64,000 nucleotides of DNA, from NCBI RefSeq assembly GCF_000422805.1, contig NZ_KE383923.1, forward strand, positions 71,296 through 135,295, given 5' to 3'. The notes under the pieces are model-generated. The model saw only the letters and a program-made list of their open reading frames with translations, was not told where the DNA came from and ran no database searches. The position numbers and the translations under genes were made by a program. Shown here one piece after another: positions 6,132 through 29,621 of this stretch (position 1 is its first letter; every line of letters begins with the position of its first letter). The DNA is from Nocardioides halotolerans DSM 19273 (GTDB taxonomy: Bacteria; Actinomycetota; Actinomycetes; Propionibacteriales; Nocardioidaceae).

Positions 6132-7214
6132 TCACTGGAAGCTGACGAACCGGACCTTCGGCCTGATCCGGCGGACGTCGGCCGCCGACATCCGGTGGAC
6201 GTCCTCGTCGTAGAACAGCTTGAAGCCCATGAAGAACTGGCTCGGCCGGGCCACCGCGTGGAAGGTGTCGAGCTTCTGGCCCGGGGTGCCGAAGCCGTCG
6301 ACGTGCTGCACCATCACCAGGCCGCGGCGCGGCTCGATGGCACCGATGTCGTTGATCATGTCGGTGCGGAACTGGTGGAGCACGAACAGCTTCTGCGGGA
6401 GTGAGTGGCGGGCGACGAGGTCGCGGAGCCAGGCGGAGACGCGGTTGACCTCGCCGGCACCGACCGAGCCGATGCGCGTGCCGGGCACGCCGTGCTTGCC
6501 CATCCGCCACTCGGGGTCGAGCGCCAGGCCGACGTAGGGGTCCTTGAGCGCCCAGGCCCAGCGCTTGGCGGCGGTCAGGAAGTCGGAGCGGCCGGGCTGG
6601 ATGTCGAGCAGGAGCAGGGCATCGTGCCGGTGGGCGGCGTCGATGTACTTCTGCACCTCGGCGCGCGGGATGTCGTGGGAGTAGTTGCCGCCGGGGCCGG
6701 CGTAGCGGTCGGCGATGCTGACGATCAGCTCGTAGACGACCTGGACCGGCTGGTTCTTGCGGGCGAACGGCTTGGCCGCGCGGTGCACCCGGCGCTGCAT
6801 CTCGTCGGGTCGGGTCTCGCCGAGGACGCCGAGCGCGCCGGTCTCGGCGGTGCCGTAGTAGGCGACGAGGAACCGGCCGTCGCCGAAGATCTTGGTGGCG
6901 CCACCGGGCAGCGTCTGGGTGGGCTGGGGCGGCTCCGCGGGCTCCTGGGTCGGCTGCTGCGTCGGCTCCGACGTCGGCTCCGACGCCGGCGGTTGCGACT
7001 GGGGGTCGGTCACCGTGGTGCCGCTGCCGGTGTCGGTGTGCGCCGTGGCCGACAGCCCGGACGTCGAGGAGACGGTGGTCGCCGTCGTACCGGCCTCGCG
7101 CATCGCGCCCCAGGCCGGCAGGTTCGCGGCGTCCGGGACGGCGGCGGCGAGCCCGATCAGCGCGGCCATCGCGAGGAAGACGCCGACGAGGACGGGGCGA
7201 TCGGATTTGTCCAT
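6132..7214 (-). CDS. Membrane-anchored extracytoplasmic protein, possible TIM-barrel
   Basis: 360 residues. An N-terminal hydrophobic helix (VLVGVFLAMAALIGLAAAV) is followed by a Ser/Thr/Pro/Gln-rich linker of about 70 residues (repeats such as SEPTSEPTQQPTQEPAEPPQ), then a globular domain from about 108. That domain contains FLVAYYGTAETGALGVLG, LLLLDIQPGRSDF, YVGLALDPEWRM and RRGLVMVQHVDGFG, with strand-end acidic residues reminiscent of glycoside-hydrolase-like TIM barrels. I cannot assign a family or substrate. The linker suggests projection through the cell wall. Monocistronic; convergent with the upstream exported protein. Confidence 0.75.
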   Translation of the reverse strand: MDKSDRPVLVGVFLAMAALIGLAAAVPDAANLPAWGAMREAGTTATTVSSTSGLSATAHTDTGSGTTVTDPQSQPPASEPTSEPTQQPTQEPAEPPQPTQTLPGGATKIFGDGRFLVAYYGTAETGALGVLGETRPDEMQRRVHRAAKPFARKNQPVQVVYELIVSIADRYAGPGGNYSHDIPRAEVQKYIDAAHRHDALLLLDIQPGRSDFLTAAKRWAWALKDPYVGLALDPEWRMGKHGVPGTRIGSVGAGEVNRVSAWLRDLVARHSLPQKLFVLHQFRTDMINDIGAIEPRRGLVMVQHVDGFGTPGQKLDTFHAVARPSQFFMGFKLFYDEDVHRMSAADVRRIRPKVRFVSFQ

Positions 7215-7280
7215 CGGACAGGAGACGATATGCGATCGCCCCCGGTTGCGACCCGACGCCCCTCCGCGTCGTCGGGGGTT

Positions 7281-7778
7281 CTAGAGAGTGCCGTCGGCCA
7301 GCAGCGCGTCGAGCTTCGCGTAGCCGTCGTTCACGCCGACCTCCATACCGGAGGAGAGCCAGGCGTCGCGCTCCTCGAAGCTGTCGCATAGCGAGGTCGC
7401 GACGAGCCGGGTGCGGCCGCCGCCGAGGTCCTCGAAGACCATCGTCTCCAGCGCCACGCTGTCCGGCATCCCCTCGTAGGTGAAGGTCTGCACGAGCCGG
7501 TCCTCGCGGACGGTGTGGAAGCAGCCGCGGAAGGCGTACTCCTCCCCGCCCGCGGTGCCGTGCCAGCGCCAGCTGCCGCCGTTGCGCGCGTCCCAGTGGT
7601 CGATGGTGGCCTCCGTGCCGTCCGGGCCGGTCCAGCGCGAGAACAGGTCGGCCTCGGTGTGGGCGCGGAAGAGCTGCGCCGGAGTCGCCGCGAACTCGCG
7701 GGTCATCCGGATCAGCGGCAGGTCGGCGGGCGCCTCGATCGTCGTGGTGCCGTCGGCGGTCGTGGTCGTGGTGGTCAT
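7281..7778 (-). CDS. SRPBCC (AHSA1/START-like) domain protein
   Basis: 165 residues from the ATG at 7778, preceded by AAGGAGAGACC. The sequence has AHSA1-type SRPBCC features: an N-terminal strand IRMTREFAATPAQLFRAHTEADLFSRWTGPDG, then GGSWRWHG, FRGCFHTVREDRLVQTF and the C-terminal helix with GMEVGVNDGYAKLDALL. These small hydrophobic-cavity proteins are typically encoded directly after an ArsR regulator, as here (ATGA overlap). The ligand is unknown. The regulator-coupled position suggests a role in responding to a small molecule. Confidence 0.9.
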   Translation of the reverse strand: MTTTTTTADGTTTIEAPADLPLIRMTREFAATPAQLFRAHTEADLFSRWTGPDGTEATIDHWDARNGGSWRWHGTAGGEEYAFRGCFHTVREDRLVQTFTYEGMPDSVALETMVFEDLGGGRTRLVATSLCDSFEERDAWLSSGMEVGVNDGYAKLDALLADGTL

Positions 7779-8140
7779 GCGGTCTCTCCTTGCTCGGAAC
7801 GGTCGTTGCCGTCGGTCTCGTCGTTGAGCTCCGCCAGGACGGCGTCCAGGCGCTGGTAGCGCGCCTCCGCCTCGCGGCGGTAGCGCTCGATCCACTTCGT
7901 CATCAGGTCGAACACCTCTGCCTCGAGATGCACCGGCCGGCGCTGCGCGTCGCGGCCCCGGGTCACCAGCCCCGCACCCTCGAGCACCTTGAGGTGCTTG
8001 GAGACGGCCTGCAGGCTCACGTCGTACGGCGCCGCCAGCTCGCCGACCGTCGCGTCGCCCGCGCACAGGCGGGCCACCATGTCGCGCCGGGTCGGGTCCG
8101 CCAGTGCGGCGAACACCTGGGACAGCGGGTCGGCGGTCAT
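7775..8140 (-). CDS. ArsR-family winged-helix repressor
   Basis: 121 residues from the ATG at 8140 (GAGAGGCCGAG upstream). The wHTH reads DPLSQVFAALADPTRRDMVARL, then TVGELAAPYDVSLQAVSKHLKVLEGAGLVTRG. It lacks the Cys pairs of metal-sensing ArsR proteins and belongs to the subgroup paired with SRPBCC proteins. A 13-residue longer start (ATG at 8179) is possible but would overlap the palindrome at 8159-8176. It probably represses its own operon through the two palindromes immediately upstream. Confidence 0.9.
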   Translation of the reverse strand: MTADPLSQVFAALADPTRRDMVARLCAGDATVGELAAPYDVSLQAVSKHLKVLEGAGLVTRGRDAQRRPVHLEAEVFDLMTKWIERYRREAEARYQRLDAVLAELNDETDGNDRSEQGETA

Positions 8141-8158
8141 CTCGGCCTCTCGATCGTG

Positions 8159-8225
8159 TTCAACCGATCGGTTGAACACGAGCAGGTTGCCACGCCGCCC
8201 TGGTAGTTGTCAACCACATGGTTGA
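8159..8225. promoter_or_regulatory. Two ArsR-type operator palindromes
   Basis: A perfect 18-bp palindrome TTCAACCGATCGGTTGAA (8159-8176) and a second site TCAACCACATGGTTGA (8210-8225) share arms TCAACC/GGTTGA with a 4-base spacer. Their centres are 50 bp apart, close to five helical turns. They sit directly upstream of the ArsR-SRPBCC operon, so they are the likely autoregulatory operators. Confidence 0.7.
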
Positions 8226-8237
8226 GGACGTGCTGCT

Positions 8238-8325
8238 AAGACCGATTCCGCGCATTCGCGCCCATTCGGTCTTGTTCCACGCGTGAAACAAGACCGATCC
8301 GGCGCAATTGCGCCGAAACGGTCTT
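8238..8325. repeat. Twin 36-bp palindromic (REP-like) elements
   Basis: Two 36-bp copies, 8238-8273 and 8290-8325, each begin AAGACCGAT and end with CGGTCTT, so each can fold into a hairpin. They are separated by a near-palindromic 16-bp spacer GTTCCACGCGTGAAAC. They lie between the 3' end of ilvD and the ArsR operon promoter. A terminator role for the reverse strand or a mobile REP-like element are both possible. Confidence 0.7.
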
Positions 8326-8361
8326 GGAGCCGGCCGCACGTACGCCGGCCAGCACGCCGAA

Positions 8362-10053
8362 TCAGCCGGTGACGGCCCCGTCGGCGGCGGATGACACGAG
8401 CCTGCGGTACTTCGCCAGCACCCCGGAGGTGTAGCGCGACGGCAGCGGCTCCCAGCCGTCCTTGCGGGACTCCCAGTCGTCCCCCATCTCGACCTCGAGC
8501 GAGCGGTTGAGGACGTCGAGGGTGATCTGGTCGCCGTCGCGGACGAACGCGATCGGTCCCCCGTCGACCGCCTCGGGGGCGATGTGGCCGACGCACAGGC
8601 CGGTGGTGCCGCCCGAGAACCGGCCGTCGGTGATGAGCAGGACGTCCTTGCCCAGGCCCGCGCCCTTGATGGCGCCCGTGATCGCGAGCATCTCGCGCAT
8701 GCCGGGACCGCCCTTGGGGCCCTCGTTGCGGATCACCACGACGTCGCCGGCGGCGATACGGCCTGCCTCGAGGGCATCCATCGCGGCGCGCTCGCCGTCG
8801 AAGACCCGCGCCGTGCCGGTGAAGACCGAGTCGTCGAAGCCGGCGGTCTTCACGACCGCGCCCTCGGGGGCCAGCGACCCCTTGAGGATCGTGAGGCCGC
8901 CGGTCCTGTGGATCGGACGGTCGAGCGAGCGGATCACGTCGTCGTCGATCGCGGGCGGGTCCAGCTCGGAGAGGTTCTCGGCCATCGTCCGGCCGGTCAC
9001 GGTCAGGCAGTCGCCGTGCATCAGGCCGGCGTCGAGCAGCGCCTTCATCACGACGGGGATGCCGCCGACCTTGTCGACGTCGTTCATCACGTAGCGGCCG
9101 AACGGCTTGAGGTCGCCGAGGTGCGGCACCTTGTCGCCGATCCGGTTGAAGTCGTCGATGCTCAGCTCGACCTCGGCCTCGCGGGCCATCGCCAGCAGGT
9201 GCAGGACGGCGTTGGTCGAGCCGCCGAGCGCCATCACCACGGTGATGGCGTTCTCGAAGGCCTCGCGGGTCATGATCTGGCGCGCGGTGATGCCCTGCCG
9301 CAGCAGCCCGACCACGGCCTCCCCCGACCGGTGCGCGAAGCCGTCACGGCGCCGGTCCACCGCGGGCGGCGCGGCCGACCCCGGGAGCGACATGCCGATC
9401 GCCTCGGCGACCGCGGCCATTGTGTTGGCGGTGTACATCCCGCCGCACGCGCCCTCGCCCGGGCAGATCGCCCGCTCGATCCGGTCGACCTGCTCGCGGC
9501 TGATCTTGCCGGCCAGGCAGGCGCCGACCGCCTCGAACGCGTCGATGATCGTGACGTCCTGGCCGTCGACCTGGCCCGGCATGATCGACCCGGCGTAGAG
9601 GAACACGCTGGCGAGGTCGAGCCGCGCGGCGGCCATCATCATCCCCGGCAGCGACTTGTCGCAGCCGGCGAGCAGCACCGATCCGTCGAGCCGCTCCGCG
9701 CTCATCACGGTCTCCACCGAGTCGGCGATGATCTCGCGGCTGACCAGCGAGAAGTGCATGCCCTCGTGGCCCATCGAGATGCCGTCGGACACCGAGATCG
9801 TGCCGAACTCCAAGGGGTAGCCGCCCGCCGCGTGCACGCCGTTCTTGACCGCCTGCGCCAGGCGCTGCAGCGACAGGTTGCAGGGCGTGATCTCGTTCCA
9901 GCTCGACGCGACGCCGATCTGCGGCTTGAGGAAGTCGTCGTCGTCCATCCCGACCGCACGGAGCATCCCCCGCGCGGCGGCGCGCTCGAGCCCGTCGGTG
10001 ACGTCGCGCGACCGGGGCTTGATGTCCGGGGTGCCACCTGGAACCTGTGCCAT
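8362..10053 (-). CDS. ilvD: Dihydroxy-acid dehydratase
   Basis: 563 residues from the ATG at 10053 ([19 protein letters not shown]), the family's usual length; a further upstream extension is shadow sequence. It dehydrates 2,3-dihydroxy-isovalerate/methylvalerate in valine, isoleucine and CoA biosynthesis. Fe-S ligand cysteines are visible in [21 protein letters not shown] and [16 protein letters not shown], the C-terminal GRFSGGTTG loop is intact, and MGHEGM and [11 protein letters not shown] are conserved. It stands alone: no ilvBNC or leu genes are adjacent. Confidence 0.96.
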
Positions 10054-16016: not shown

Positions 16017-16850
16017 TCACCCGCCGCTGGCGGCCGCAGACGGATCCGGTCGGTGCGCGGTCCCGACGACGGTGGCGCGGCGGGCGGCACGACGCAGCGT
16101 GGTGAGCACGGCCGGGCCGACGACGACGATCGCGATGGCGTTGGTGATCGCGCGGCCGGTGTCGAAGGACCCGGTCGACGTGATGAGCGTGTAGGCGCCG
16201 AAGCGCTGGAGGTTCTCCCAGAGAGGCGCCGCGGGATCGAAAGACAGCGCGGTCTGCTCGTGGCCGGGGATCACGATGCCGAGGAGGAACGGCCAGCCCG
16301 AGAGGTTCATGAGGAGGCCGTAGAGGTAGGCGGCGACGACGCCGTACGCCGCGAGCATCGCGATCTCCCAGCGACCGGTGACCCGGCGCGGCAGCAGCCC
16401 GGCACCCATGCCGACCCACGCCGAGACGAGCATCTGGAACGGCAGCCAGGGTCCGACGCCGGCGGTCATCAGCGCGGAGGCGAACAGCGAGGTCACGCCA
16501 AGGACGAAGCCGAAGCCGGGGCCGAACACCCGGCCGGCCAGCACCAGCAGGAAGAACGTCAGCTCCACCCCGCCCAGGCCCGGCGAGAGCCCGCGCAGGA
16601 TCGCGATGATCGCGCTGAGCACTCCGAGGACGGCGAGCACCCGGGTGTCGACGCCGCCCTCGCTCAGCTCGGCCAGCACCACCGCGATCACGACCGGCAG
16701 CAGCGCCAGGAACAGGAACGGCGGGTCGACCCGGTCGGTGGGCTGCACCCGGAGCAGCAGCGGCCAGACGAGCATCATCAGCCCGCCCAGGGAGGCAACG
16801 GCCAGGATCAGCGCGGCTCGGCGCGAGACGGGGAGGGCGTGGTCGGTCAC
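16017..16850 (-). CDS. ECF transporter S component, probably for cobalamin
   Basis: 277 residues, last gene of the riboswitch operon. GTG start at 16850, whose GTGA overlaps the stop of the ATPase gene. It has about six helices, including GLSPGLGGVELTFFLLVLAGRVFGPGFGF and PWLPFQMLVSAWVGMGAGLLP, typical of large S components of the CbrT-like kind. S components bind the vitamin at the membrane and dock on the shared T-A-A' module. The substrate is inferred to be a cobalamin because the operon leader is a cobalamin riboswitch; the sequence alone does not prove it. Confidence 0.82.
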   Translation of the reverse strand: MTDHALPVSRRAALILAVASLGGLMMLVWPLLLRVQPTDRVDPPFLFLALLPVVIAVVLAELSEGGVDTRVLAVLGVLSAIIAILRGLSPGLGGVELTFFLLVLAGRVFGPGFGFVLGVTSLFASALMTAGVGPWLPFQMLVSAWVGMGAGLLPRRVTGRWEIAMLAAYGVVAAYLYGLLMNLSGWPFLLGIVIPGHEQTALSFDPAAPLWENLQRFGAYTLITSTGSFDTGRAITNAIAIVVVGPAVLTTLRRAARRATVVGTAHRPDPSAAASGG

Positions 16851-18418
16851 GGCAGCTCCGCCAGGGCGTCGGTGACCTCGTCGACGCGCAGCCACGGCGC
16901 CCCGAGCACCTTGGTCACCTGGGGCGCGAACGCCGGCGACTCGGCCACGACGCGGCGTACCGGCCCGGACGAGACGACCTCGCCCTCCGCGAGCACCACC
17001 ACGTCGTCGGCCGCGAGCGCGGTGAACTCCACGTCGTGGGTGGAGACCAGCACCGTGCGGCCCTCCGCGGCGAGCCTGCGGAGGATCGTGGCGAGCGCGC
17101 GCTTGGCGCGGTAGTCGAGGCCGCGGGTCGGCTCGTCCAGGAGCACGACAGGAGGACGTCCGGCCAGCACGAGCGACAGGGCGAGAGCCAGCCGCTGACC
17201 CTCGGAGAGGTCGCGCGGGTGCTGGTCGCCAGGGATCCCGGGCGACAGGGTGTCGAGGACTGCCCGGGTGTCCGGGCCGCCGGCCGCGCACTCCTCGTCG
17301 ACGGTCTCGAGGTAGAGCAGGTCGGCCGACTGCTGCGGCAGCAGCCCGACGGCGCGGCGACGCTCGGCCGGCCGCAGCCCCGCGGGGTCGAGGTCGCCCA
17401 TCGAGACGCGCCCCGACCGGCGGGCGCCGCTCCCCTGCACCGCCCACAGCAGCGACGACTTGCCGGAGCCGTTGCGGCCCATCAGCGCGGTGACCCGGCC
17501 GCGCGCGAGGGTCAGTGACACCTCGCGCACGGCGACCGTCCGGCCGTGGACGACGGTGAGGCCGGAGACGACCACACCGGCCTCCCCGGCCGCAGGCGCC
17601 TCGGCCGCCGGGGGCGGCAGGGCCAGCGTCGCCGCCCGCCGTCGCGCCTCCCGCACGGTCAGCGGGAGCGGGGACCAGCCGACGGCCCGGCCCAGCTCGA
17701 CGAGCGGCGGGACGACCGGCGAGGTCGCGAGCAGCGAGGCGGGGTCGCCCACGACGAGGCTGCCGTCGCCGCCGACCAGGCCGATCCGGTCGGCGAACGG
17801 CACCACCCGCTCGAGACGGTGCTCGGCGAGCAGCACCGAGACGCCGAGGTCGTGCACCAGGCGGGTGATCGTCGCCAGCACGTCCTCGGCCGCGGTCGGG
17901 TCGAGGGCGGACGTCGGCTCGTCGAGCACCAGCAGCCTGGGATGCATGGTCAGCACCGCGCCGATCGCGACCCGCTGCTGCTGGCCGCCGGAGAGGGCGC
18001 GCAGGTCGCGGTCGCGCAGGTCGGCGATGCCGAGCAGGTCGAGGGTCTCCTCGACCCGGCGCCGCATGGTCTCGGGGGGCAGGCCGAGCTGCTCCATGCC
18101 GTAGGCGAGCTCCTCCTCGACCGTGTCGGTCACGAACCCGGCGAGCGGGTCCTGGCCGACGTACCCCATCGCGTGTGCGCGCTCCCGAGGCGGCGCCTCG
18201 AGGACGGAGACCCCGTCGAGCAGGACGTCGCCGCGGAGCGTGCCGCCGGAGAACCTCGGCACCAGTCCGGTCACCACGCCGAGCAGCGTCGACTTCCCCG
18301 ACCCGGTCGGGCCGGTGACCAGGACGAGCTCGCCCTCCTCGACCGACAGCGAGACACCGTCGAGCACGGGGGCGGACCCGTAGCCGAACGTGATGTCACG
18401 CAGCTCCAGCAAGGTCAC
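16847..18418 (-). CDS. ECF transporter ATPase, two ABC domains fused (A-A')
   Basis: 523 residues from the GTG at 18418. The first ABC domain has Walker A GPTGSGKST (about 36-44), signature ALSGGQQQRVAIG and [13 protein letters not shown]. The second has Walker A GRNGSGKSS (about 335), a slightly altered signature DLSEGQRLALALS, and VVLLDEPTRGLD. Fusion of the two energising subunits is common in actinobacterial ECF systems. It overlaps the T-component gene upstream and the S-component gene downstream by 4 bp each, so T, A-A' and S are cotranslated. Confidence 0.93.
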   Translation of the reverse strand: MTLLELRDITFGYGSAPVLDGVSLSVEEGELVLVTGPTGSGKSTLLGVVTGLVPRFSGGTLRGDVLLDGVSVLEAPPRERAHAMGYVGQDPLAGFVTDTVEEELAYGMEQLGLPPETMRRRVEETLDLLGIADLRDRDLRALSGGQQQRVAIGAVLTMHPRLLVLDEPTSALDPTAAEDVLATITRLVHDLGVSVLLAEHRLERVVPFADRIGLVGGDGSLVVGDPASLLATSPVVPPLVELGRAVGWSPLPLTVREARRRAATLALPPPAAEAPAAGEAGVVVSGLTVVHGRTVAVREVSLTLARGRVTALMGRNGSGKSSLLWAVQGSGARRSGRVSMGDLDPAGLRPAERRRAVGLLPQQSADLLYLETVDEECAAGGPDTRAVLDTLSPGIPGDQHPRDLSEGQRLALALSLVLAGRPPVVLLDEPTRGLDYRAKRALATILRRLAAEGRTVLVSTHDVEFTALAADDVVVLAEGEVVSSGPVRRVVAESPAFAPQVTKVLGAPWLRVDEVTDALAELP

Positions 18419-19497
18419 GACGCGACCGTCCGGGGCTCGGGTGCGGCCGCCGCCGCGGCGAGGCCGAGGACGGAGCCGGCCAGCGCGACGAGCGTGACCT
18501 GCGGGAACGACGTGAGGCCGGGGTAGGCCACGAGGATCTGGTGCCCGCTGACCCACCACCCGACGACGCCGGTGGCGACGCCCGACAGCATCACCGCCAC
18601 CTCCGGCCAGCGCCACGGGTCGGGCCGGTAGCGCGTGCGGGCGACGCGGCGGCCGGCCAGCGCCAGCCCCGCGAACGCCGCGAGCACGCCCAGCACCAGC
18701 ATCGGGGTCGCGAGGACCCGCGGCGCGGTGTGGTCGAGGCCGGCGTAGACCCCGACGGCGACGCCGCAGAGCCCCACCAGCATGAGGCCGCCGGTGACGC
18801 GGCGCTCGCTCGGCGGCGCACCCGCCGAGCGGCCGTAGCCGCGGGTGTCCATGCCGGCCGCCAGCGCCAGCGACCGCTCGAGCGCGTCCTCGAGCACCGG
18901 GACGAGGTAGCGGCGCAGCCGGCCGGTGCGCCGGGAGTCGCCCGCCCGGAGCGCCTGCGCGGTCCGGACCCGGCGCGCGCTGTCGACGAGCTGCGGCAGC
19001 ACCGTCACCGCCACGACCAGGGCGGTGCCGACCTCGTGCAGCGCCGCCGGCACCGACCGGAGCAGGCGCTTGGGGTTCGCGAGCGCGTTGGCGGCGCCGA
19101 CGCAGATGACGATCGTGCCGAGCCGCAGTCCGTCGTACAGCCCGGCCAGCAGGGCCTCGCGGGTCACCGGGCCCAGCAGCTGCAGCCCCAGCACCCAGTC
19201 GGGCAGCGGCACCTGGGGCAGGTCGAGCAGCACGTGCCCACCGCCGACGCTGCCGCCCAGGACGACCCGGAACAGCACCCGCATCGCCACGATGACGACC
19301 GCGACGACGACGTAGAGCCGGAACGCGTCGGCCCACGGCTGGTGGGAGCGCCGCGCCAGCACCACCAGCGTGGCCACCGCGACGATGGTCAGCAGCACCA
19401 GCGGGTTGGTCGTGAACGACGCCGCGGTCGCCAGCCCGAGCGCCCACACCCACCACGCGACCGGGTGCAGGTCGCGGGGCAGCCGCGCGGCGCTCAT
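18415..19497 (-). CDS. ECF transporter T component (CbiQ/EcfT-like)
   Basis: 360 residues from the ATG at 19497. Helices fill residues 10-130. The cytoplasmic coupling region has a first Ala-Arg-Gly-type motif, RAGDSRRTGR, and a second, AAGMDTRGYGRS, which in EcfT proteins bind the two ATPase domains. Unusually long: about 100 extra residues after the coupling helices add four more hydrophobic segments, as seen in some actinobacterial CbiQ-family proteins. It lies between the Pro/Thr-rich anchored protein and the ATPase. Confidence 0.88.
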   Translation of the reverse strand: MSAARLPRDLHPVAWWVWALGLATAASFTTNPLVLLTIVAVATLVVLARRSHQPWADAFRLYVVVAVVIVAMRVLFRVVLGGSVGGGHVLLDLPQVPLPDWVLGLQLLGPVTREALLAGLYDGLRLGTIVICVGAANALANPKRLLRSVPAALHEVGTALVVAVTVLPQLVDSARRVRTAQALRAGDSRRTGRLRRYLVPVLEDALERSLALAAGMDTRGYGRSAGAPPSERRVTGGLMLVGLCGVAVGVYAGLDHTAPRVLATPMLVLGVLAAFAGLALAGRRVARTRYRPDPWRWPEVAVMLSGVATGVVGWWVSGHQILVAYPGLTSFPQVTLVALAGSVLGLAAAAAAPEPRTVAS

Positions 19498-19537
19498 CGG
19501 GGCACCACGGGCCCAGCCGGCCGGGCTAGGCCACGGC

Positions 19538-20302
19538 CTAGGAGTCGTCGCCGCTCGGGGTGTCGTCGGACCTCGCCGGCGCGAGGGCCGGGCGGTTGCC
19601 CCGGCCGAGCACCCCACCGAGCAGTGCCAGCATCGAGGTGAGCACGAGCAGGATGCCCGGCACCACCCAGACGGGGGCGCTCTTGGTCTCTACCGGCGCC
19701 GAGCTGCTCAGGTAGGAGTCGTAGGTCTCGGCGTCGGTGCTGCCCTGGTCGCCACCGTTGGGGGTGGCGAGCGCCTCGAGCGTCGGGTCGGCGCTGGTCG
19801 GCGCGGACGTCGGCGCGGAGGTCGGCGCGGTCGAGGGTGCCGACGGCGAGCGGGTGGTCGCCGGTGCGGCGGGCGTGCTCGACGCCGCGGGCGGCACGTA
19901 CGGCGCGCTCGTCGACGCCGGTGGCGGCTTGCTCTGCTGCGAGCCACCGGAGCCCTGGTTGTGGGGCTTGCCGCCGTTGCTGCCGCCGTTGTTGCCGCCG
20001 TTGTGCAGCGTCGACGGCTTCTTCGTCGGCTTCTTGGTGGGCTTCTTGGTCGGCTTCTTGGTGGGCTTCTTGGTCGGTGAGGCCGGCGGCGGGGGCGGGG
20101 CCTGGGTGGTCGGCGCGACCGTCGCGGTGGGCGGCCTGGTCGGCGTCGGCGTCTTCTGGGTCGGCGCCGCCACCGACGGCGCACCCACGCTGGTCTGGCC
20201 CGAACCGGCCGCGCTCTGCGGCCACCAGGCGACCAAGCACGCGGCAAGACCCAGCAGCACCGCCACGGCGATGCGGACGATGTTCGTCCTGGTGCTGGTC
20301 AC
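19538..20302 (-). CDS. Bitopic Pro/Thr/Ser/Lys-rich wall-spanning protein of the cobalamin operon
   Basis: 254 residues from the GTG at 20302 (AGGAGG 5 bases upstream). An N-terminal helix (IVRIAVAVLLGLAACLVAWW) is followed by a low-complexity exterior of about 170 residues: a Pro/Thr part, a TKKPTKKP repeat encoded by a 12-bp DNA repeat near 20028-20074, a Gly/Asn/Gln part, then Ala/Pro/Ser/Thr with SAPTSAPTSAPTSADP. A C-terminal helix (APVWVVPGILLVLTSMLALLGG) re-enters the membrane. No enzymatic domain. A structural spacer or tether for the exported binding proteins is an inference from context. Confidence 0.75.
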   Translation of the reverse strand: MTSTRTNIVRIAVAVLLGLAACLVAWWPQSAAGSGQTSVGAPSVAAPTQKTPTPTRPPTATVAPTTQAPPPPPASPTKKPTKKPTKKPTKKPTKKPSTLHNGGNNGGSNGGKPHNQGSGGSQQSKPPPASTSAPYVPPAASSTPAAPATTRSPSAPSTAPTSAPTSAPTSADPTLEALATPNGGDQGSTDAETYDSYLSSSAPVETKSAPVWVVPGILLVLTSMLALLGGVLGRGNRPALAPARSDDTPSGDDS

Positions 20303-20392
20303 GACGTCCTCCTGAGGCCCCCACGCGACATGCCTCCGCGTCCATCATGAAAAATACAGCACGGCCGGGTGCCCCGGAGAAAGTTCGGACAT

Positions 20393-21379
20393 CTATGGGC
20401 TAGTCCGCCCACGACCGCGCAGGACGTACGCCGCCGCGCTGCCGCCGGCCAGCGCGAGCAGCACCAGCAGCACCGCCCAGCCCGGCAGCGTGCCCGACGT
20501 GGCCGCGTCGTCCGGGGGCTCCGACGCCGTGGGCGCCGCCACCTCGGACGGCGACGCCGTCGCGTCCGCGGGCGCGGTCTCCGACGGGCTCGACGGCGCG
20601 CTGGTCGTCGCGGGCGAGCCCGTCGGGGTCGGCTCCTCGGAGGCCGACCGCGTGGCGGAGGTCGGCACCGCGCTCTGCGTGGGCGCCACCGTCGGGGTGG
20701 CGGCCGAGCTCGCCGACGGCCTCCCGCTCGGCGGGGCCGTGGGCGTGGGCGAGGCGTGAGCGCCCGAGCCGCCGCCGTTCCCGCCACCGCTGCCACCGCC
20801 GTTGCCGCCGCCCTGACCGTGGCCGCCGCCCGACCCGCCGCCCGACCCGCCACCACCGGGCGGTGCGGTCGTGGACGGCGCCGCTGTCGGGGTGCTGGCG
20901 TGCGGCGCGGGCGGGACGCCGGGCGGGTTGCTGGAGCCGGTCTGCCACGCGAACGCGACGTACCCGCCGCTCGGGATCGACAGCGCCCCGGCGGCCAGCG
21001 AGGAGTAGCTCCACGAACCGGACCTGCCGTCGGACCACCACAGGCCCCAGTAGGCGTTGGAGGGCGGGGTGTTGACGCACGGGTCGGAGGCCGGCTGCCC
21101 GTCGATCCGGCACACGAACCCGGGCTGGCGCTGCACGTAGGTGAGGGAGAACCCGGCCGACGCGAACAGCGAGGCGCCGTCCTGGCCGCCGCTGGTGACG
21201 CACACCTGGTCGACACCGCCGCCGAGGGCGCCGTGGTCGACGACGACCGTGACGCCGGTCGCCCCCGAGCAGGCGGCCGCCGTCGCGGGTGCGGGCGAGC
21301 CGGCGACGATGCCCAGGCCCGCCGTCGCGGTCGCGAGGACCACGGCGAGTCGGGCGACCAGCCCCTTCGGACCGGTCAT
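20393..21379 (-). CDS. Membrane-anchored DUF4430/SCO2322-like protein, putative cobalamin-capture partner
   Basis: 328 residues. A signal peptide ends near ATAA at 35. Residues 40-152 form a single compact domain with VTVVVDHGALGGGVDQVCV, FVCRIDGQPASDPC and AYWGLWWSDGRSGSWSYSS, matching the DUF4430-type fold (the C-terminal domain of animal transcobalamin/intrinsic factor) and the actinobacterial SCO2322 family as I remember them. Four Cys could make two disulfides. A Gly-rich then Ser/Thr/Pro-rich linker (about 153-295) leads to a C-terminal membrane helix and a basic tail, with no LPXTG motif. It overlaps the barrel protein gene by 4 bp. Confidence 0.8.
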   Translation of the reverse strand: MTGPKGLVARLAVVLATATAGLGIVAGSPAPATAAACSGATGVTVVVDHGALGGGVDQVCVTSGGQDGASLFASAGFSLTYVQRQPGFVCRIDGQPASDPCVNTPPSNAYWGLWWSDGRSGSWSYSSLAAGALSIPSGGYVAFAWQTGSSNPPGVPPAPHASTPTAAPSTTAPPGGGGSGGGSGGGHGQGGGNGGGSGGGNGGGSGAHASPTPTAPPSGRPSASSAATPTVAPTQSAVPTSATRSASEEPTPTGSPATTSAPSSPSETAPADATASPSEVAAPTASEPPDDAATSGTLPGWAVLLVLLALAGGSAAAYVLRGRGRTSP

Positions 21380-22986
21380 CGCGTGACCGTCACCGCTCGG
21401 ACGCCCTTGCGGCCACGGAACTCGCCCTTGACCTTGATCTTCGACGTGCCGAGCCTCGTCGCCTTGAGCTTGACCTTGACGACGCCCTTGGCGTTGGCCT
21501 GCTTCTTGACCTTCTTGCCCAGGAACGTCACGACGGCGCTCTCCCGCGGTGCCAGGCCGGTGACCTTCACGGTGAGCTTCGCGCCCAGGTGGACGGAGGT
21601 GCGGCCCTTCAGCCTGAAGGTGGCCTTCGCGAGCCCGGCGACGGTGACGGAGTCGGTCTCACCGCCGGCGTCGACCGCCGACACGGTCACGTCCGCCGTC
21701 TTCTTGGGCATGGCCACCGCGATCGTCGCGGTGCCCGCGGCGTCGAGGACGACCCGGCTCGAGGTGCTGCCCACGGTGACGCACAGGGTGTTGCCCGGAG
21801 CGCCGCTGACGCCGACCGACTGGGTGCTGCCGGCCTTCACGAAGTCGGCGGGTCCGGTCAGCGTGGTGGCACCCGCCGCCGAGCCGCCGGGCGCCCACAG
21901 CAGCGCGGGCAGGGCCTGGGTGGTGGCCCTGGTGTTCACGCTGGTGTCCACGGCTCCGAGCGGCCCCGACCTGGCCTTGACGAGGGCGGCAGCGTCGAGC
22001 GCGACCGCGCCGTCGTCCTTGGCGGCGTACGCGACGCACGACCCGGCGTTGACCAGCTGCTGGCCGCGCAGCCACTGCGCGGCCTTGGCCGCGGCCGCGG
22101 TGCGGCCCCCGACGCCCAGAGCCCAGCCCGCGACGCCGGTGCTGTTGGCGTTGCCGCCGTTGAACGAGCCGTCGGCCCCTTGCTGGGAGACCAGCCAGTC
22201 GAGCGCCTTGGTGATGCTGGCCGAGACGGCCGGCGCGGCCTTCTGGTCCTGGAGCATGAGGACGGTGAGACCGGTGACGTCGATGCTGCCGCCCGTGGGG
22301 GCGTCGTCGGTGCAGCCCTGCTCGGTGTCGGCCTTCGGCGAGAACGCCTCGCGGAAGAAGCCCGCGGCGCACTGCTGGCGCAGGTCGAACGCGAGGGCCG
22401 AGGCCGCCAGTGACGACCCCGCGTCGTGGAGCGTCGCGACGGCGAAGGCCTGGGTCAGCGGGCTGTTGAAGTCGTCGTCCCACTCCGTGGCGGGGTCGTC
22501 GGCGTCGACGAGCCGTCCGAGGTAGTCGGTGTCGACGGCCTCGATGTGGGCCTCCACCGCGGCGACGAGGTCGTCGACGAGCGCGCCGCTGCGTCCCTGC
22601 GACTGCAGGAACGCGGACAGCTTGGCGGCCGCTCCGGTGCCGGAGAAGTCGTTGTAGTAGCTGCTCGAGCTGGCGACGAGGGCGTTGGTCATCGCGGTCA
22701 GCGCGGCCGCCTGCCCACCCACCGCGTCGAGCGCGAAGCCGGCGTCGATGGTGAGCCCGTAGTCGTCGTAGAACTCCCCCGGCCCCTGGCCCCAGGTGGT
22801 CCGCAGGATGTCGTTGGCCTGGCGCTGGGCGGCGAGGTACGACGCGGCGCCCGCGGCAGGAGCGGGGTCGGCCCCGGCCGGTGCCGGGATGGCGGATGCC
22901 TGTGCGCTCGGCGCGACGAGGCACAGCCCCGCCGCCAGAGCAGAGCCGGCGACCACGGCGGCGCCGTGGACGAAGGTGATGCGCAT
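21376..22986 (-). CDS. Exported alpha/alpha-barrel (prenyltransferase-repeat) protein, putative cobalamin binder
   Basis: 536 residues, first gene after the riboswitch. A signal peptide (cleavage near SAQASA, 31) precedes an approximately 320-residue helical-repeat domain with squalene-cyclase-like repeats such as ALDWLVSQQGADGSFNGGNA and AKAAQWLRGQQ. This is the toroid fold used by terpene cyclases and by the N-terminal domain of transcobalamin/intrinsic factor. The DxDD cyclase motif is not seen. Two Ig-like beta domains follow, the last Lys-rich (about 450-536). There is no anchor; it is probably retained on the wall or by the neighbouring protein. A cobalamin-binding role is inferred from the riboswitch and gene order. 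Confidence 0.8.
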   Translation of the reverse strand: MRITFVHGAAVVAGSALAAGLCLVAPSAQASAIPAPAGADPAPAAGAASYLAAQRQANDILRTTWGQGPGEFYDDYGLTIDAGFALDAVGGQAAALTAMTNALVASSSSYYNDFSGTGAAAKLSAFLQSQGRSGALVDDLVAAVEAHIEAVDTDYLGRLVDADDPATEWDDDFNSPLTQAFAVATLHDAGSSLAASALAFDLRQQCAAGFFREAFSPKADTEQGCTDDAPTGGSIDVTGLTVLMLQDQKAAPAVSASITKALDWLVSQQGADGSFNGGNANSTGVAGWALGVGGRTAAAAKAAQWLRGQQLVNAGSCVAYAAKDDGAVALDAAALVKARSGPLGAVDTSVNTRATTQALPALLWAPGGSAAGATTLTGPADFVKAGSTQSVGVSGAPGNTLCVTVGSTSSRVVLDAAGTATIAVAMPKKTADVTVSAVDAGGETDSVTVAGLAKATFRLKGRTSVHLGAKLTVKVTGLAPRESAVVTFLGKKVKKQANAKGVVKVKLKATRLGTSKIKVKGEFRGRKGVRAVTVTR

Positions 22987-22993
22987 GGATGGT

Positions 22994-23051
22994 TCCTTCC
23001 CGCTGCAGACAGCGGGAACGGCCCCGGAGATCCGGGCTCGACCCGCTGCAG
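22994..23051 (-). promoter_or_regulatory. Riboswitch expression platform: hairpin masking the ribosome site
   Basis: On the minus strand a perfect 9-bp stem TTCCCGCTG / CAGCGGGAA (22997-23018, 4-base loop) includes the first part of the Shine-Dalgarno GGAAGGA (22994-23000) of the barrel-protein gene. Upstream, at 23042-23051, the 10-mer CTGCAGCGGG repeats the masking arm exactly and could pair with the opposite arm instead, freeing the ribosome site. A GC hairpin (CCCGGATCTCCGGG) separates the two copies. Confidence 0.7.
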
Positions 23052-23059
23052 TTTCCTCG

Positions 23060-23210
23060 ACAGCGACTGGTCAGGACGCGTCGCAGCAGGTGCTCCGGCT
23101 CGCAGCACCACCGAGGTGGTGCGGCCTACGGTTGCGGGTCAGCGCCGGACTTGGACCGGCTTCCCCCACGGCGGGCGTGATGAATGAAGTTGTTCGTGCT
23201 TCTCGTGGCG
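23060..23210 (-). ncRNA. Cobalamin riboswitch controlling the ECF/transcobalamin-like operon
   Basis: On the minus strand the leader reads GGGGGAAGCCGGTCCAAGT, CCGGCGCTGACCCGCAACCG, TAGGCC, a GC-rich hairpin, and then GAGCCGGAGCACCTGCTGCG. The B12-box-like core GCTGACCCGCAACCGTA and the 3' loop GGAGCACCTGC are characteristic of the cobalamin riboswitch class. It lies about 75 bases before the start codon of the exported barrel protein. Ligand binding should hide the ribosome site (see the hairpin at 22997-23018). Ends are approximate. Confidence 0.85.
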
Positions 23211-23234
23211 GAGCCTAGCGCCGACCGGACCGAT

Positions 23235-23311
23235 CCGCCGAGTCGGCGTTACTGATGAGCAGTAGCGCCGACTCGGCCGGTTACTCGTCAGCAGCAACGC
23301 CGACTCGGCGG
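23235..23311. repeat. REP-like palindrome after gatB
   Basis: CCGCCGAGTCGGCG at 23235-23248 is complementary to GCCGACTCGGCGG at 23299-23311, and a third arm GCGCCGACTCGG lies at 23265-23276. The two halves are also imperfect direct repeats (TTACT...AGCAG...CGCCGACTCGGC). It starts 2 bp after the gatB stop, so it can act as the gatCAB terminator and insulates the riboswitch operon that follows on the same strand. Confidence 0.7.
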
Positions 23312-26877: not shown

Positions 26878-26924
26878 ACACAACATGTGGTCCCGAACTT
26901 CGCGGCGACCACTACATACGGTGG
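26878..26924 (+). promoter_or_regulatory. Pair of NrdR-box-like sites in the nrdAB promoter
   Basis: ACACAACATGTGGTCC (26878-26893) and CCACTACATACGGTGG (26909-26924) each match 11 of 16 positions of the NrdR box consensus as I recall it (ACACWATATMTWGTGT). Their centres are 31 bp apart, three helical turns, the usual arrangement for paired NrdR boxes. They immediately precede the riboswitch, so the promoter probably overlaps them. Confidence 0.65.
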
Positions 26925-26929
26925 TCGGC

Positions 26930-27136
26930 GCAGCTGGTTCCGGACCTCATCCAGAGGTTCGGAGGCAAGAGGGAACCCGGTGGGACTCCGGGACTGCCCC
27001 GCAGCGGTGAGTGGGAACGACCGCCGTCAGACGCACTGGGTCAACCAGACCTGGGAAGCGACGGCCAGTAGGGATCGGACCTTGGGCGACCAGGGTCCGG
27101 CGCGCCCACGAGTCCGAAGACCTGCCAGCGCACCGC
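26930..27136 (+). ncRNA. Cobalamin riboswitch upstream of class Ia ribonucleotide reductase
   Basis: Classic B12 element: AAGAGGGAACCCGGTGGGAC, TCCGGGACTGCCCCGCAGCG, GTGAGTGGGAACGACCGCCG, then ACACTGGGTC-like ACGCACTGGGTCAACCAGAC, CTGGGAAGCGACGGCCAGTAGG split across the core, and the 3' loop AGTCCGAAGACCTGCCAGCG. It ends about 135 bases before nrdA. In Streptomyces a B12 riboswitch represses the class Ia RNR when cobalamin is available for the class II enzyme; the same logic fits here. Confidence 0.93.
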
Positions 27137-27272
27137 ACCCGCCGGGTGCGGTGGTCCGAGGCCGCGTGGGACGGCCGACGGCTGGGACGACGCGGCCCCT
27201 ACTCCGCGGCGTACGACCGTCTCCCCTGCGCGACCTCGGGCCTTCTGGAAGCGCCTCGCGAGGAGAGAGACG

Positions 27273-29621
27273 ATGCAGGTACGCAAGAGGAACGGCGACC
27301 CGGAGGACGTCGACGTCAACAAGATCGTGCGAGCGGTCGACCGGGTCTGCAACGACCTGGCCGACGTCGACCCGATGCGGGTCGCCACCCGCACCATCAG
27401 CGGGCTGTACGACGGAGCGACCACCGCGGAGCTCGACCGGCTGTCGATCCAGACGGCCGCCGAGATGATCGGCGAGGAGCCGGAGTACTCCCGGCTCGCC
27501 GCGCGGCTGCTGTCGGGCTACATCGACAAGGAGGTCCGCAACCAGGGCGTCATGTCGTTCAGCCAGTCGGTCGCGCTCGGCCACGCCGAAGGGCTGATCG
27601 GCGACGACACCGCGAGGTTCGTCAAGGACAACGCCCGGAAGCTCGACTTCGCTGTCGACGCGGAGCTGGCGGCAGGCGCCGACCGTCGGTTCGAGTACTT
27701 CGGGCTGCGCACGGTCTACGACCGCTACCTGCTCAAGCACCCCTCGGACCGGCTCGTGATCGAGACGCCGCAGTACTTCCTGCTGCGCGTCGCCTGCGGG
27801 CTGGCCCGGACGCCGGGCGAGGCCGTCGACTTCTACCGGCTGATGGCGTCGCTCGCCTACCTCCCGAGCAGCCCGACGCTGTTCAACTCCGGCACCCGGC
27901 ACACCCAGATGTCGAGCTGCTACCTCGTCGACAGCCCGCGCGACGACCTCGACTCGATCTACGCGCGCTACCAGCAGGTGGCACGGCTCTCGAAGTTCGC
28001 CGGCGGCATCGGCATCGGCTTCTCGCGGGTGCGCTCGCGCGGTGCGTTGATCCGGGGGACGAACGGCGCCTCCAACGGCATCGTGCCGTTCCTCCGGACG
28101 CTCGACTCGTCGGTGGCCGCGGTCAACCAGGGTGGCCGGCGCAAGGGCGCCGCGTGCGTCTACCTCGAGCCGTGGCACCCGGACGTCGAGGAGTTCCTCG
28201 AGCTGCGCGACAACACCGGCGAGGACGCCCGGCGCACCCACAACCTCAACCTCGCGAACTGGGTCCCCGACGAGTTCATGCGCCGGGTCGAGGCGGACGC
28301 CGACTGGTCGCTCATCGACCCCGACCAGGCGCCGGAGCTCCTCGACCTGTGGGGCGCGGCCTTCGACGTGGCGTACCGCCGGGCCGAGGAGGAGGGCCGG
28401 TTCGTGCGCAAGGTCAAGGCGCGCGAGCTGTTCGGCAAGATGATGCGCACGCTCGCGCAGACCGGCAACGGCTGGATGACGTTCAAGGACGCCGCCAACC
28501 GCACCTGCAACCAGACCTCCGACGAGCCGGGTGGACCCGTCGTCCACCTCTCCAACCTCTGCACCGAGATCATCGAGGTCTCCTCCGACGCCGAGACCGC
28601 GGTCTGCAACCTCGGCTCGATCAACCTCGCGCGACACGTGACCCCGTCGGGCATGGACTGGGAGCGGTTGCGCGCGACCGTCCGGACGGCCCTGCCGCTG
28701 CTCGACCGGGTGATCGACGTCAACTACTACCCGAGCCCCGAGGCGGCGGCGTCCAACCCGCAGTGGCGCCCGGTCGGCCTCGGGCTGATGGGCCTGCAGG
28801 ACGTCTTCTTCGCCCTGCGCCTGCCGTTCGACTCGTCCGAGGCGCGGGAGCTGTCGACGCGGATCCAGGAGGACGTCTACCTCACCGCGCTCGAGGTGTC
28901 GTGCGAGCTCGCCCGCGAGCACGGCCCCCATCCGGCGTACGCCGCGACGCGGGCTGCCGCCGGCCACCTCCAGCCGGACTTCTGGCCGGACTCAGCACCC
29001 GCGCAGCCCGAGCGCTGGGCGGCACTGCGTGCCGACGTCGCCGAGCACGGGCTGCGCAACTCGCTGCTCGTGGCGATCGCGCCGACCGCGACCATCGCGT
29101 CGATCGCCGGCTGCTACGAGTGCATCGAGCCGCAGGTGTCCAACCTGTTCAAGCGCGAGACGCTCTCCGGTGAGTTCCTCCAGGTCAACGCGGCGCTGAC
29201 CCGGGAGCTGAAGGAGCGGGGACTGTGGACCGCGGAGGTCCGCGACGCCATCAAGCGGGCCGAGGGCTCGGTGCAGGGCGTCGCAGCGCTGCCCGAGGAC
29301 GTGCGGCTGCTGTTCCGCACGGCGTGGGAGCTGCCACAACGGGCGCTGATCGACATGGCGGCCGCGCGGGCGGCGTACGTCGACCAGAGCCAGTCGCTCA
29401 ACCTCTTCATCGCAGGTCCGTCGATCGGGAAGCTCTCGTCGATGTACCTCCACGCCTGGAAGTCCGGGCTGAAGACGACCTACTACCTGCGGTCGCGCCC
29501 GGCGACCCGGATCCAGCAGACGACCGTGCTGTCGGAGCCGACCGCCGTCCCCAACACCACCGACCAGGAGGCACTCGCGTGCTCCCTGGAGAACCCCGAG
29601 AGCTGCGAGGCCTGCCAGTGA
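27273..29621 (+). CDS. nrdA: Class Ia ribonucleoside-diphosphate reductase, alpha subunit
   Basis: 782 residues. It reduces ribonucleotides to deoxyribonucleotides using a radical passed from NrdB. An N-terminal ATP-cone (MQVRKRNGDPEDVDVNKIVR) gives allosteric control. Active-site residues are Cys216 (MSSCYLVD), the NxCxE radical triad Asn428/Cys430/Glu432 (SNLCTEI) and the partner Cys445 (VCNLGS). The shuttle Cys pair sits at the very end (SCEACQ). The ATG at 27273 has GAGGAGAG upstream. The long leader holds a B12 riboswitch and NrdR-like boxes. Its TGA overlaps the nrdB start. Confidence 0.96.
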   Translation: MQVRKRNGDPEDVDVNKIVRAVDRVCNDLADVDPMRVATRTISGLYDGATTAELDRLSIQTAAEMIGEEPEYSRLAARLLSGYIDKEVRNQGVMSFSQSVALGHAEGLIGDDTARFVKDNARKLDFAVDAELAAGADRRFEYFGLRTVYDRYLLKHPSDRLVIETPQYFLLRVACGLARTPGEAVDFYRLMASLAYLPSSPTLFNSGTRHTQMSSCYLVDSPRDDLDSIYARYQQVARLSKFAGGIGIGFSRVRSRGALIRGTNGASNGIVPFLRTLDSSVAAVNQGGRRKGAACVYLEPWHPDVEEFLELRDNTGEDARRTHNLNLANWVPDEFMRRVEADADWSLIDPDQAPELLDLWGAAFDVAYRRAEEEGRFVRKVKARELFGKMMRTLAQTGNGWMTFKDAANRTCNQTSDEPGGPVVHLSNLCTEIIEVSSDAETAVCNLGSINLARHVTPSGMDWERLRATVRTALPLLDRVIDVNYYPSPEAAASNPQWRPVGLGLMGLQDVFFALRLPFDSSEARELSTRIQEDVYLTALEVSCELAREHGPHPAYAATRAAAGHLQPDFWPDSAPAQPERWAALRADVAEHGLRNSLLVAIAPTATIASIAGCYECIEPQVSNLFKRETLSGEFLQVNAALTRELKERGLWTAEVRDAIKRAEGSVQGVAALPEDVRLLFRTAWELPQRALIDMAAARAAYVDQSQSLNLFIAGPSIGKLSSMYLHAWKSGLKTTYYLRSRPATRIQQTTVLSEPTAVPNTTDQEALACSLENPESCEACQ

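Follow-up and report, generated by a model that had tools for sequence, protein, structure and literature searches.

A predicted vitamin B12 uptake operon in Nocardioides halotolerans with two exported proteins resembling in fold the domains of transcobalamin

How might an actinobacterium that probably requires vitamin B12, and seems from its gene content unable to make it, capture the vitamin at its surface and bring it into the cell? This question is raised by an operon of Nocardioides halotolerans DSM 19273, which lies in a stretch of 64,000 nucleotides of contig NZ_KE383923.1, here called the window, in whose positions all coordinates are given. An earlier note on this DNA had described, on the minus strand, a cobalamin riboswitch leader and genes for an exported toroid protein, a small exported domain, a Pro/Thr/Lys-rich protein and the T, A-A' and S components of an energy-coupling factor (ECF) transporter, and the leader and all six genes were found in the place it had given; together they run from 23218 to 16017. 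We consider it probable that the operon serves B12 uptake in an actinobacterium that requires the vitamin, with two surface capture proteins that would work together with an ECF importer.

The importer consists of a T component of the CbiQ family (18415-19497; PF02361, 1.3e-13), an A-A' double ATPase in which Pfam recognizes ABC_tran twice (16847-18418; PF00005, 4.9e-49) and an S component (16017-16850; PF12822, ECF_trnsprt, 1.6e-8), three genes that together make up a dedicated ECF module. Ahead of them are the genes of a secreted alpha/alpha-toroid protein of 536 amino acids, distantly of the SCO2321 type (21376-22986), and of an exported beta-domain protein, distantly of the SCO2322 type, with a low-complexity stalk and a C-terminal hydrophobic segment (20393-21379). 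As read in the sequence, four-base ATGA/GTGA overlaps couple the toroid and beta-domain genes, the T and A-A' genes, and the A-A' and S genes; the first of these is ATGA, in agreement with the earlier description of two separate surface proteins with coupled genes. Signal peptides were called by eye, and membrane anchors by hydropathy count only. For neither exported protein does a Pfam or NCBIfam model score above its cut-off, and searches of Pfam, NCBIfam and PDB sequences were uninformative for both, their homologues, profiles and structure models being the only informative sources.

The leader (23034-23218, minus strand), aligned over 36 loci, contains a cobalamin riboswitch aptamer. The window copy matches Rfam Cobalamin (RF00174) in its core, 23165-23089, with 27.8 bits and an E-value of 2.6e-5, under the gathering score of 31.5. 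The match recurs in relatives, 12 of 15 related loci matching RF00174 at an E-value of 0.01 or less and seven of the 15 above gathering. Among the 31 consensus pairs of the 36 aligned leaders, 15 have both partners changed in one sequence or more, and the aptamer core appears to be maintained by these compensatory changes. A riboswitch box, searched for as 17 bases of the core with at most three mismatches, occurs in 82 of the 86 loci that carry the toroid. In 55 of them the first toroid gene has the box within the 700 bases ahead of it; in the other 27 the box comes about 1.4-1.6 kb later, separating two toroid genes or, at locus L089, where one toroid gene was detected, separating that gene from the beta-domain gene. 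Of the four loci without the box, three offer no more than 105 bases of sequence upstream, and the last, L110, carries a one-base insertion. In tandem loci such as L034, L041 and L044 the riboswitch stands between two successive toroid genes, so that the first toroid copy would be outside the riboswitch-controlled part. Just upstream of the window leader, behind gatB, an inverted repeat (23233-23310), strong and with arms of the GCCGAGTCGGCG type, attracts spurious Rfam microRNA matches.

The beta-domain of the second exported protein spans residues ~39-149 (20933-21265). Its AlphaFold2 model, built from 51 sequences, has a predicted local distance difference test score (pLDDT) of 87.2. In a Foldseek comparison with the PDB the top 17 matches were transcobalamin, haptocorrin and 3u7z, a structure of DUF4430 type, with probabilities of 0.97-1.00 before a drop to 0.23. 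VIA-align, which re-aligns the candidates supplied by Foldseek, gave transcobalamin, haptocorrin, intrinsic factor or 3u7z at every rank from 1 to 15 (Z 9.5-10.7; root-mean-square deviation 2.9-3.5 over 94-99 residues), the next unrelated fold having a Z of 6.2. Strands (E) and helix (H) follow one another in the model as E16-21, E29-34, H41-47, E52-54, E62-65, E82-89 and E113-120, and a two-strand beta-hairpin comes after the helix. Burroughs et al. (2007; PMC1796856) give a beta-hairpin after the helix as the defining mark of the transcobalamin-like SLBB clade. In fold and in hairpin the modelled domain agrees with that clade, and we regard it as a predicted transcobalamin-type beta-domain. 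By eye, FVCRIDG...YWGL...GALSIPSGGYVAFAW of the window protein can be aligned with YITCIQG...YWEL...GAGSYVVRNGENLEVRW of haptocorrin.

Sequence families describe this protein less well. The earlier note had spoken of a DUF4430/SCO2322-like domain; the likeness holds for the fold, although the window protein reaches neither the curated cut-off of PF14478 (DUF4430) nor the 85 bits of the SCO2322 family NF040672, which 17 of 51 members match weakly (best 0.0079). The beta-domain (A4) profile matched no PDB chain, and the DUF4430 profile matched one, haptocorrin, at an E-value of 0.19. Matches returned by phmmer for the whole protein were discarded as glycine- or proline-rich look-alikes (best E-value 8.6e-4). 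The C-terminal membrane segment predicted from the sequence (20420-20479) has counterparts in 84 of 91 homologous beta-domain frames, which have a hydrophobic stretch near the C-terminus.

The toroid protein was modelled by AlphaFold2 over residues 33-536 (pLDDT 93.1). Its toroid domain (residues ~36-367, 21886-22881) is followed by an all-beta C-terminal part (residues ~373-536, 21379-21870), composed of strands throughout in the model, which in our reading may be two Ig-like domains. The best VIA-align matches of the toroid were the prenylcyclase 6ij1 (Z 24.2), a GH76 mannanase (23.1) and, at Z 22-24, class II terpene cyclases, including drimenyl diphosphate synthase, and GH76 enzymes. The alpha-domain of rat transcobalamin is itself described as a six-hairpin glycosidase-like domain (PMC11107200), and the modelled toroid has the six-hairpin alpha/alpha fold class in common with it, a likeness at the level of the class. 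The proposal that the two proteins are transcobalamin-like halves is sustained for the small domain, for the class of the toroid and by fused relatives with the same domain order, the closest structural matches of the toroid lying elsewhere; folds unrelated to the transcobalamin domains, which the earlier note had named as the outcome that would speak against it, were looked for in the structure models and not obtained. The profile searches it had proposed, with PF01122 and DUF4430, gave no match to the window proteins.

An alternative raised by these structural matches is that the toroid protein acts outside the cell as an enzyme like the terpene cyclases or glycoside hydrolases, modifying or freeing a substrate, and that the operon imports the product. 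In class II terpene cyclases the acid motif is DxDDT. This motif is present in none of 52 aligned toroid rows, in all of which an Asp aligned with its middle Asp is invariant, and class II terpene cyclase activity is disfavoured on this ground. An enzyme would also leave unexplained the cobalamin leader and the fusion of the beta-domain to the toroid, and we hold this alternative to be very improbable. Pfam families found in 52 toroid relatives were TED (40), squalene cyclase C (31), Prenyltrans (24) and Cobalamin_bind (3); the window protein itself matches none of the toroid families, nor SCO2321_fam, at their cut-offs. The SCO2321 family NF053823 (cut-off 300 bits), with no match to the window protein at an E-value of 0.01 or less, is matched by 34 of the 52 members (best 2e-22).

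The arrangement is conserved well beyond the window. We compared 88 loci, namely the window and 87 that were fetched, 20 from one genome set and 67 from a second collection; as two sources were used, at least six contigs occur twice. Sixty-four of the 67 are named as Nocardioides, Marmoricola, Aeromicrobium, Pimelobacter or Nocardioidaceae, and the other three are metagenome-assembled genomes named to phylum or class only. The order toroid, beta-domain, T, A, S is unbroken in 78 of the 88 loci, window included. Seven of the remaining ten are truncated at contig ends (L053, L057, L062, L065, L073, L092, L117), L110 and L115 retain the order with frames broken or missing, and L037 has the toroid only. 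The Pro/Thr/Lys-rich protein (19538-20302, minus strand), thought earlier to be a wall-spanning part of the system, does not share this conservation: a gap large enough for its gene between the beta-domain and T genes exists in 2 of 83 loci, and phmmer found no match to it in 20 loci at 1e-3. We reject it as a core part and regard it as an accessory gene that looks like an insertion.

Beyond these relatives, a profile of the beta-domain matches 47 of 296 genomes of the phylum, and 20 stretches from 19 of the 47 were inspected. Of these loci, which were chosen by protein profile alone, 19 have matches to the T, A and S profiles, 14 have the toroid and 17 have the box upstream. Elsewhere on the same stretches the box pattern has four matches in 646,126 strand-bases, compared with three in shuffles, and two of the four precede further beta-domain genes or modules. 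The conserved gene order and the riboswitch box are not due to chance. In 5 of the 20 loci (L178, L179, L180, L183 and L190), which come from three different families, toroid and beta-domain are joined in one open frame with the toroid first. The fused proteins of L178-L180 carry triple CWB2 and that of L183 SLH domains, and that of L190 ends, as read from the sequence, in a hydrophobic segment; Rfam Cobalamin is above gathering at four of the five loci, L178 being the exception. The L178 protein (6397-9279, plus strand) has a toroid, two consecutive beta-domains and then the CWB2 repeats. At L197 (3291-9260) the toroid and beta-domain genes lie on the strand opposite T-A-S, with a cobalamin box of their own ahead. 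At L188 (6037-9075, minus strand) and L189 (5608-8661, minus strand) one open frame, of 1013 and 1018 amino acids respectively, matches the T, A and S profiles one after another; it immediately follows a beta-domain gene and seems to encode an ECF transporter in a single chain. No Rfam match above gathering was obtained on either stretch.

Proteins that Pfam does detect as DUF4430 occur in 51 of the 296 genomes, the window's genome not being among them, and the results show that this model misses an actinobacterial branch of the transcobalamin-like clade. In other classes detectable DUF4430 proteins adjoin ECF genes; in 14 of 20 fetched DUF4430 loci the stretch also matches an S-component profile, and both of the two given to Rfam match Cobalamin (107.8 and 88.8 bits). 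L138 unites both types in one cluster, in the order box, SCO2322-type domain, T, A, S, toroid and DUF4430. Very long DUF4430 proteins of other classes (1538, 1839 and 1944 amino acids) have no toroid domain by Pfam. In an actinobacterial genome of 7.9 Mb an exported DUF4430 protein (L139, 9598-10292, minus strand) stands directly behind a cobalamin box on a stretch where T, A and S profiles are unmatched.

The genome of the host points to a need for B12. It has nine matches to B12-binding domains, eight of them over cut-off, and neither CbiC nor CobS was found in it, so that this actinobacterium seems unable to make the vitamin, as judged from its genes. The gene content also bears on the alternative that the substrate of the ECF transporter is cobalt or another ligand related to B12, the exported proteins binding precursors such as cobinamide and not B12. 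A T component of the CbiQ family would suit such a role, B12 riboswitches are also found ahead of predicted cobalt uptake genes (PMC2667541), and the transcobalamin beta-domain binds cobinamide too (PMC5599065). With no CbiC or CobS, however, the cell would gain little from cobalt or cobinamide, and the beta-domain resembles cobalamin carriers; we give this alternative very little weight. Rfam Cobalamin has two matches in the genome, the window leader and a full riboswitch at 26917-27143 of the window (plus strand, 84.6 bits), behind which Pfam places the large-chain (27273-29621) and small-chain (to 30649) genes of ribonucleotide reductase. Cobalamin riboswitches ahead of ribonucleotide reductase genes are an established type of control.

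If the locus is indeed a B12 uptake operon, the riboswitch family suggests that plentiful intracellular B12 would bind the leader aptamer and switch the operon off. When B12 is scarce, the secreted toroid protein and the membrane-tethered beta-domain protein would be made. In transcobalamin the beta-domain binds B12 first and the alpha-domain closes afterwards (PMC11107200), and the two domains, when expressed separately, assemble in a B12-dependent way (PMC5599065). By analogy, B12 might first settle on the beta-domain, the toroid then closing over it, and the captured vitamin would be handed to the S component. This leads to a more specific proposal, to which we give about an even chance: the pair is a naturally split transcobalamin, in which B12 itself unites two separately anchored surface proteins, so that capture is assembly, and the complex docks on the ECF S component. 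Since actinobacteria have both split and one-chain forms, the latter in the domain order of the animal carriers, the proposal adds the actinobacterial branch to the low-GC Gram-positives among the lineages from which transcobalamin and intrinsic factor might have come.

Several observations weigh against these interpretations. The Foldseek E-values of the beta-domain, 5.5e-3 to 7.6e-2, include none below 1e-3; PF14478 is matched by one of 51 members, at an E-value of 0.22; and hhalign with true DUF4430 domains is borderline (probability 48, E-value 1.8e-4). No transcobalamin alpha-domain is among the best 50 of 990 chains aligned to the toroid, and by sequence the toroid profile retrieves terpene cyclases and complement proteins, not transcobalamin. 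PF01122 is matched weakly by 3 of 52 toroid homologues (best 0.036) and by none of the 296 genomes, a search in which the controls gave no match either. The genome has another candidate importer, one FecCD pair, at which Rfam found no cobalamin leader. Contrary to expectation, presence of the toroid shows no link to loss of CbiC within the family (CbiC in 35 of 55 genomes with the toroid and 15 of 21 without, p 0.60), in a table that is incomplete since it lacks some of the genomes that had neither toroid nor CbiC matches. Finally, no toroid was found beside the beta-domain in 6 of the 20 wider loci.

This last count, together with the closeness of the toroid profile to terpene cyclases and complement TED domains, would also fit another arrangement, in which only the beta-domain protein binds B12, as the isolated transcobalamin beta-domain does (PMC5599065; structure 5np4), and the toroid protein, also secreted, has a structural or wall-anchoring role beside it or a different ligand. 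There would then be no sandwich, and the ECF transporter would still import B12. Against this stand the position of the toroid gene directly ahead of the beta-domain gene in most of the 88 loci, the fusions described above, and the NxNxT residues of the toroid, which are the same in all 52 aligned rows, a pattern that suits a conserved site without revealing its ligand. We consider this arrangement unlikely, though less so than the enzyme or the cobalt and cobinamide alternatives.

The general idea of bacterial transcobalamin-like B12 capture is not new, having been published in 2007 by Burroughs et al. (PMC1796856). Like the window protein, members of their SLBB clade are secreted beta-grasp proteins with a hairpin after the helix, encoded in operons with CbiO and CbiQ and predicted to scavenge B12, and their beta-grasp domain is often fused to an alpha/alpha toroid. 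That clade was placed in low-GC Gram-positives, planctomycetes and, less often, euryarchaea, whereas the window system is actinobacterial; a figure legend names one Mycobacterium, its clade unstated there. In the parts of that article drawn on here we found no actinobacterial branch of the clade and no neighbouring two-chain form of toroid and beta-domain, and its main text does not contain the word riboswitch. The window system differs from the clade as described there in its two chains, in being missed by Pfam DUF4430 and in its cobalamin riboswitch. In the open-licence papers searched we found no experimental test of the predicted bacterial system and no mention of SCO2322 or RUMGNA_00854.

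With animal transcobalamin, haptocorrin and intrinsic factor the window pair has the beta-domain fold and the six-hairpin toroid class in common, and fused bacterial forms share their order of domains; it differs from them in having two chains, a toroid without a PF01122 match, a membrane- or wall-bound location and an ABC-type importer instead of endocytosis. Distant homologues of the two window proteins are the NCBIfam families SCO2321 and SCO2322, whose members occur in ECF gene groups of this kind (L138, L154), although the window proteins remain below the cut-offs of these models and the model names carry no B12 role. RAST annotation uses the names CbrT/CbrU/CbrV and 'additional lipoprotein component' for a predicted ECF transporter of cobalamin. 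An ECF-type importer, ECF-CbrT, has been shown to carry cobalamin (eLife 2018, PMC5997447); the parts of that report used here mention no extracellular binding protein, and its ECF module is shared with other S components, whereas the window module stands beside capture proteins of its own. In Bacteroides, the surface proteins BtuG (PMC6143338) and BtuJ (PMC13398666) catch B12 for an importer, as we propose for the window proteins, but BtuJ belongs to the DUF4465 family and folds as a beta-jelly roll, and these systems supply the outer-membrane transporter BtuB.

The window pair provides concrete, small exported proteins with which the 2007 prediction of Gram-positive B12 scavenging, and the origin of the animal B12 carriers, can be tested, and it allows a function to be proposed for the families SCO2321 and SCO2322. 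If the carrier is indeed split and comes together on its ligand, it would be a ready-made B12 sensor.

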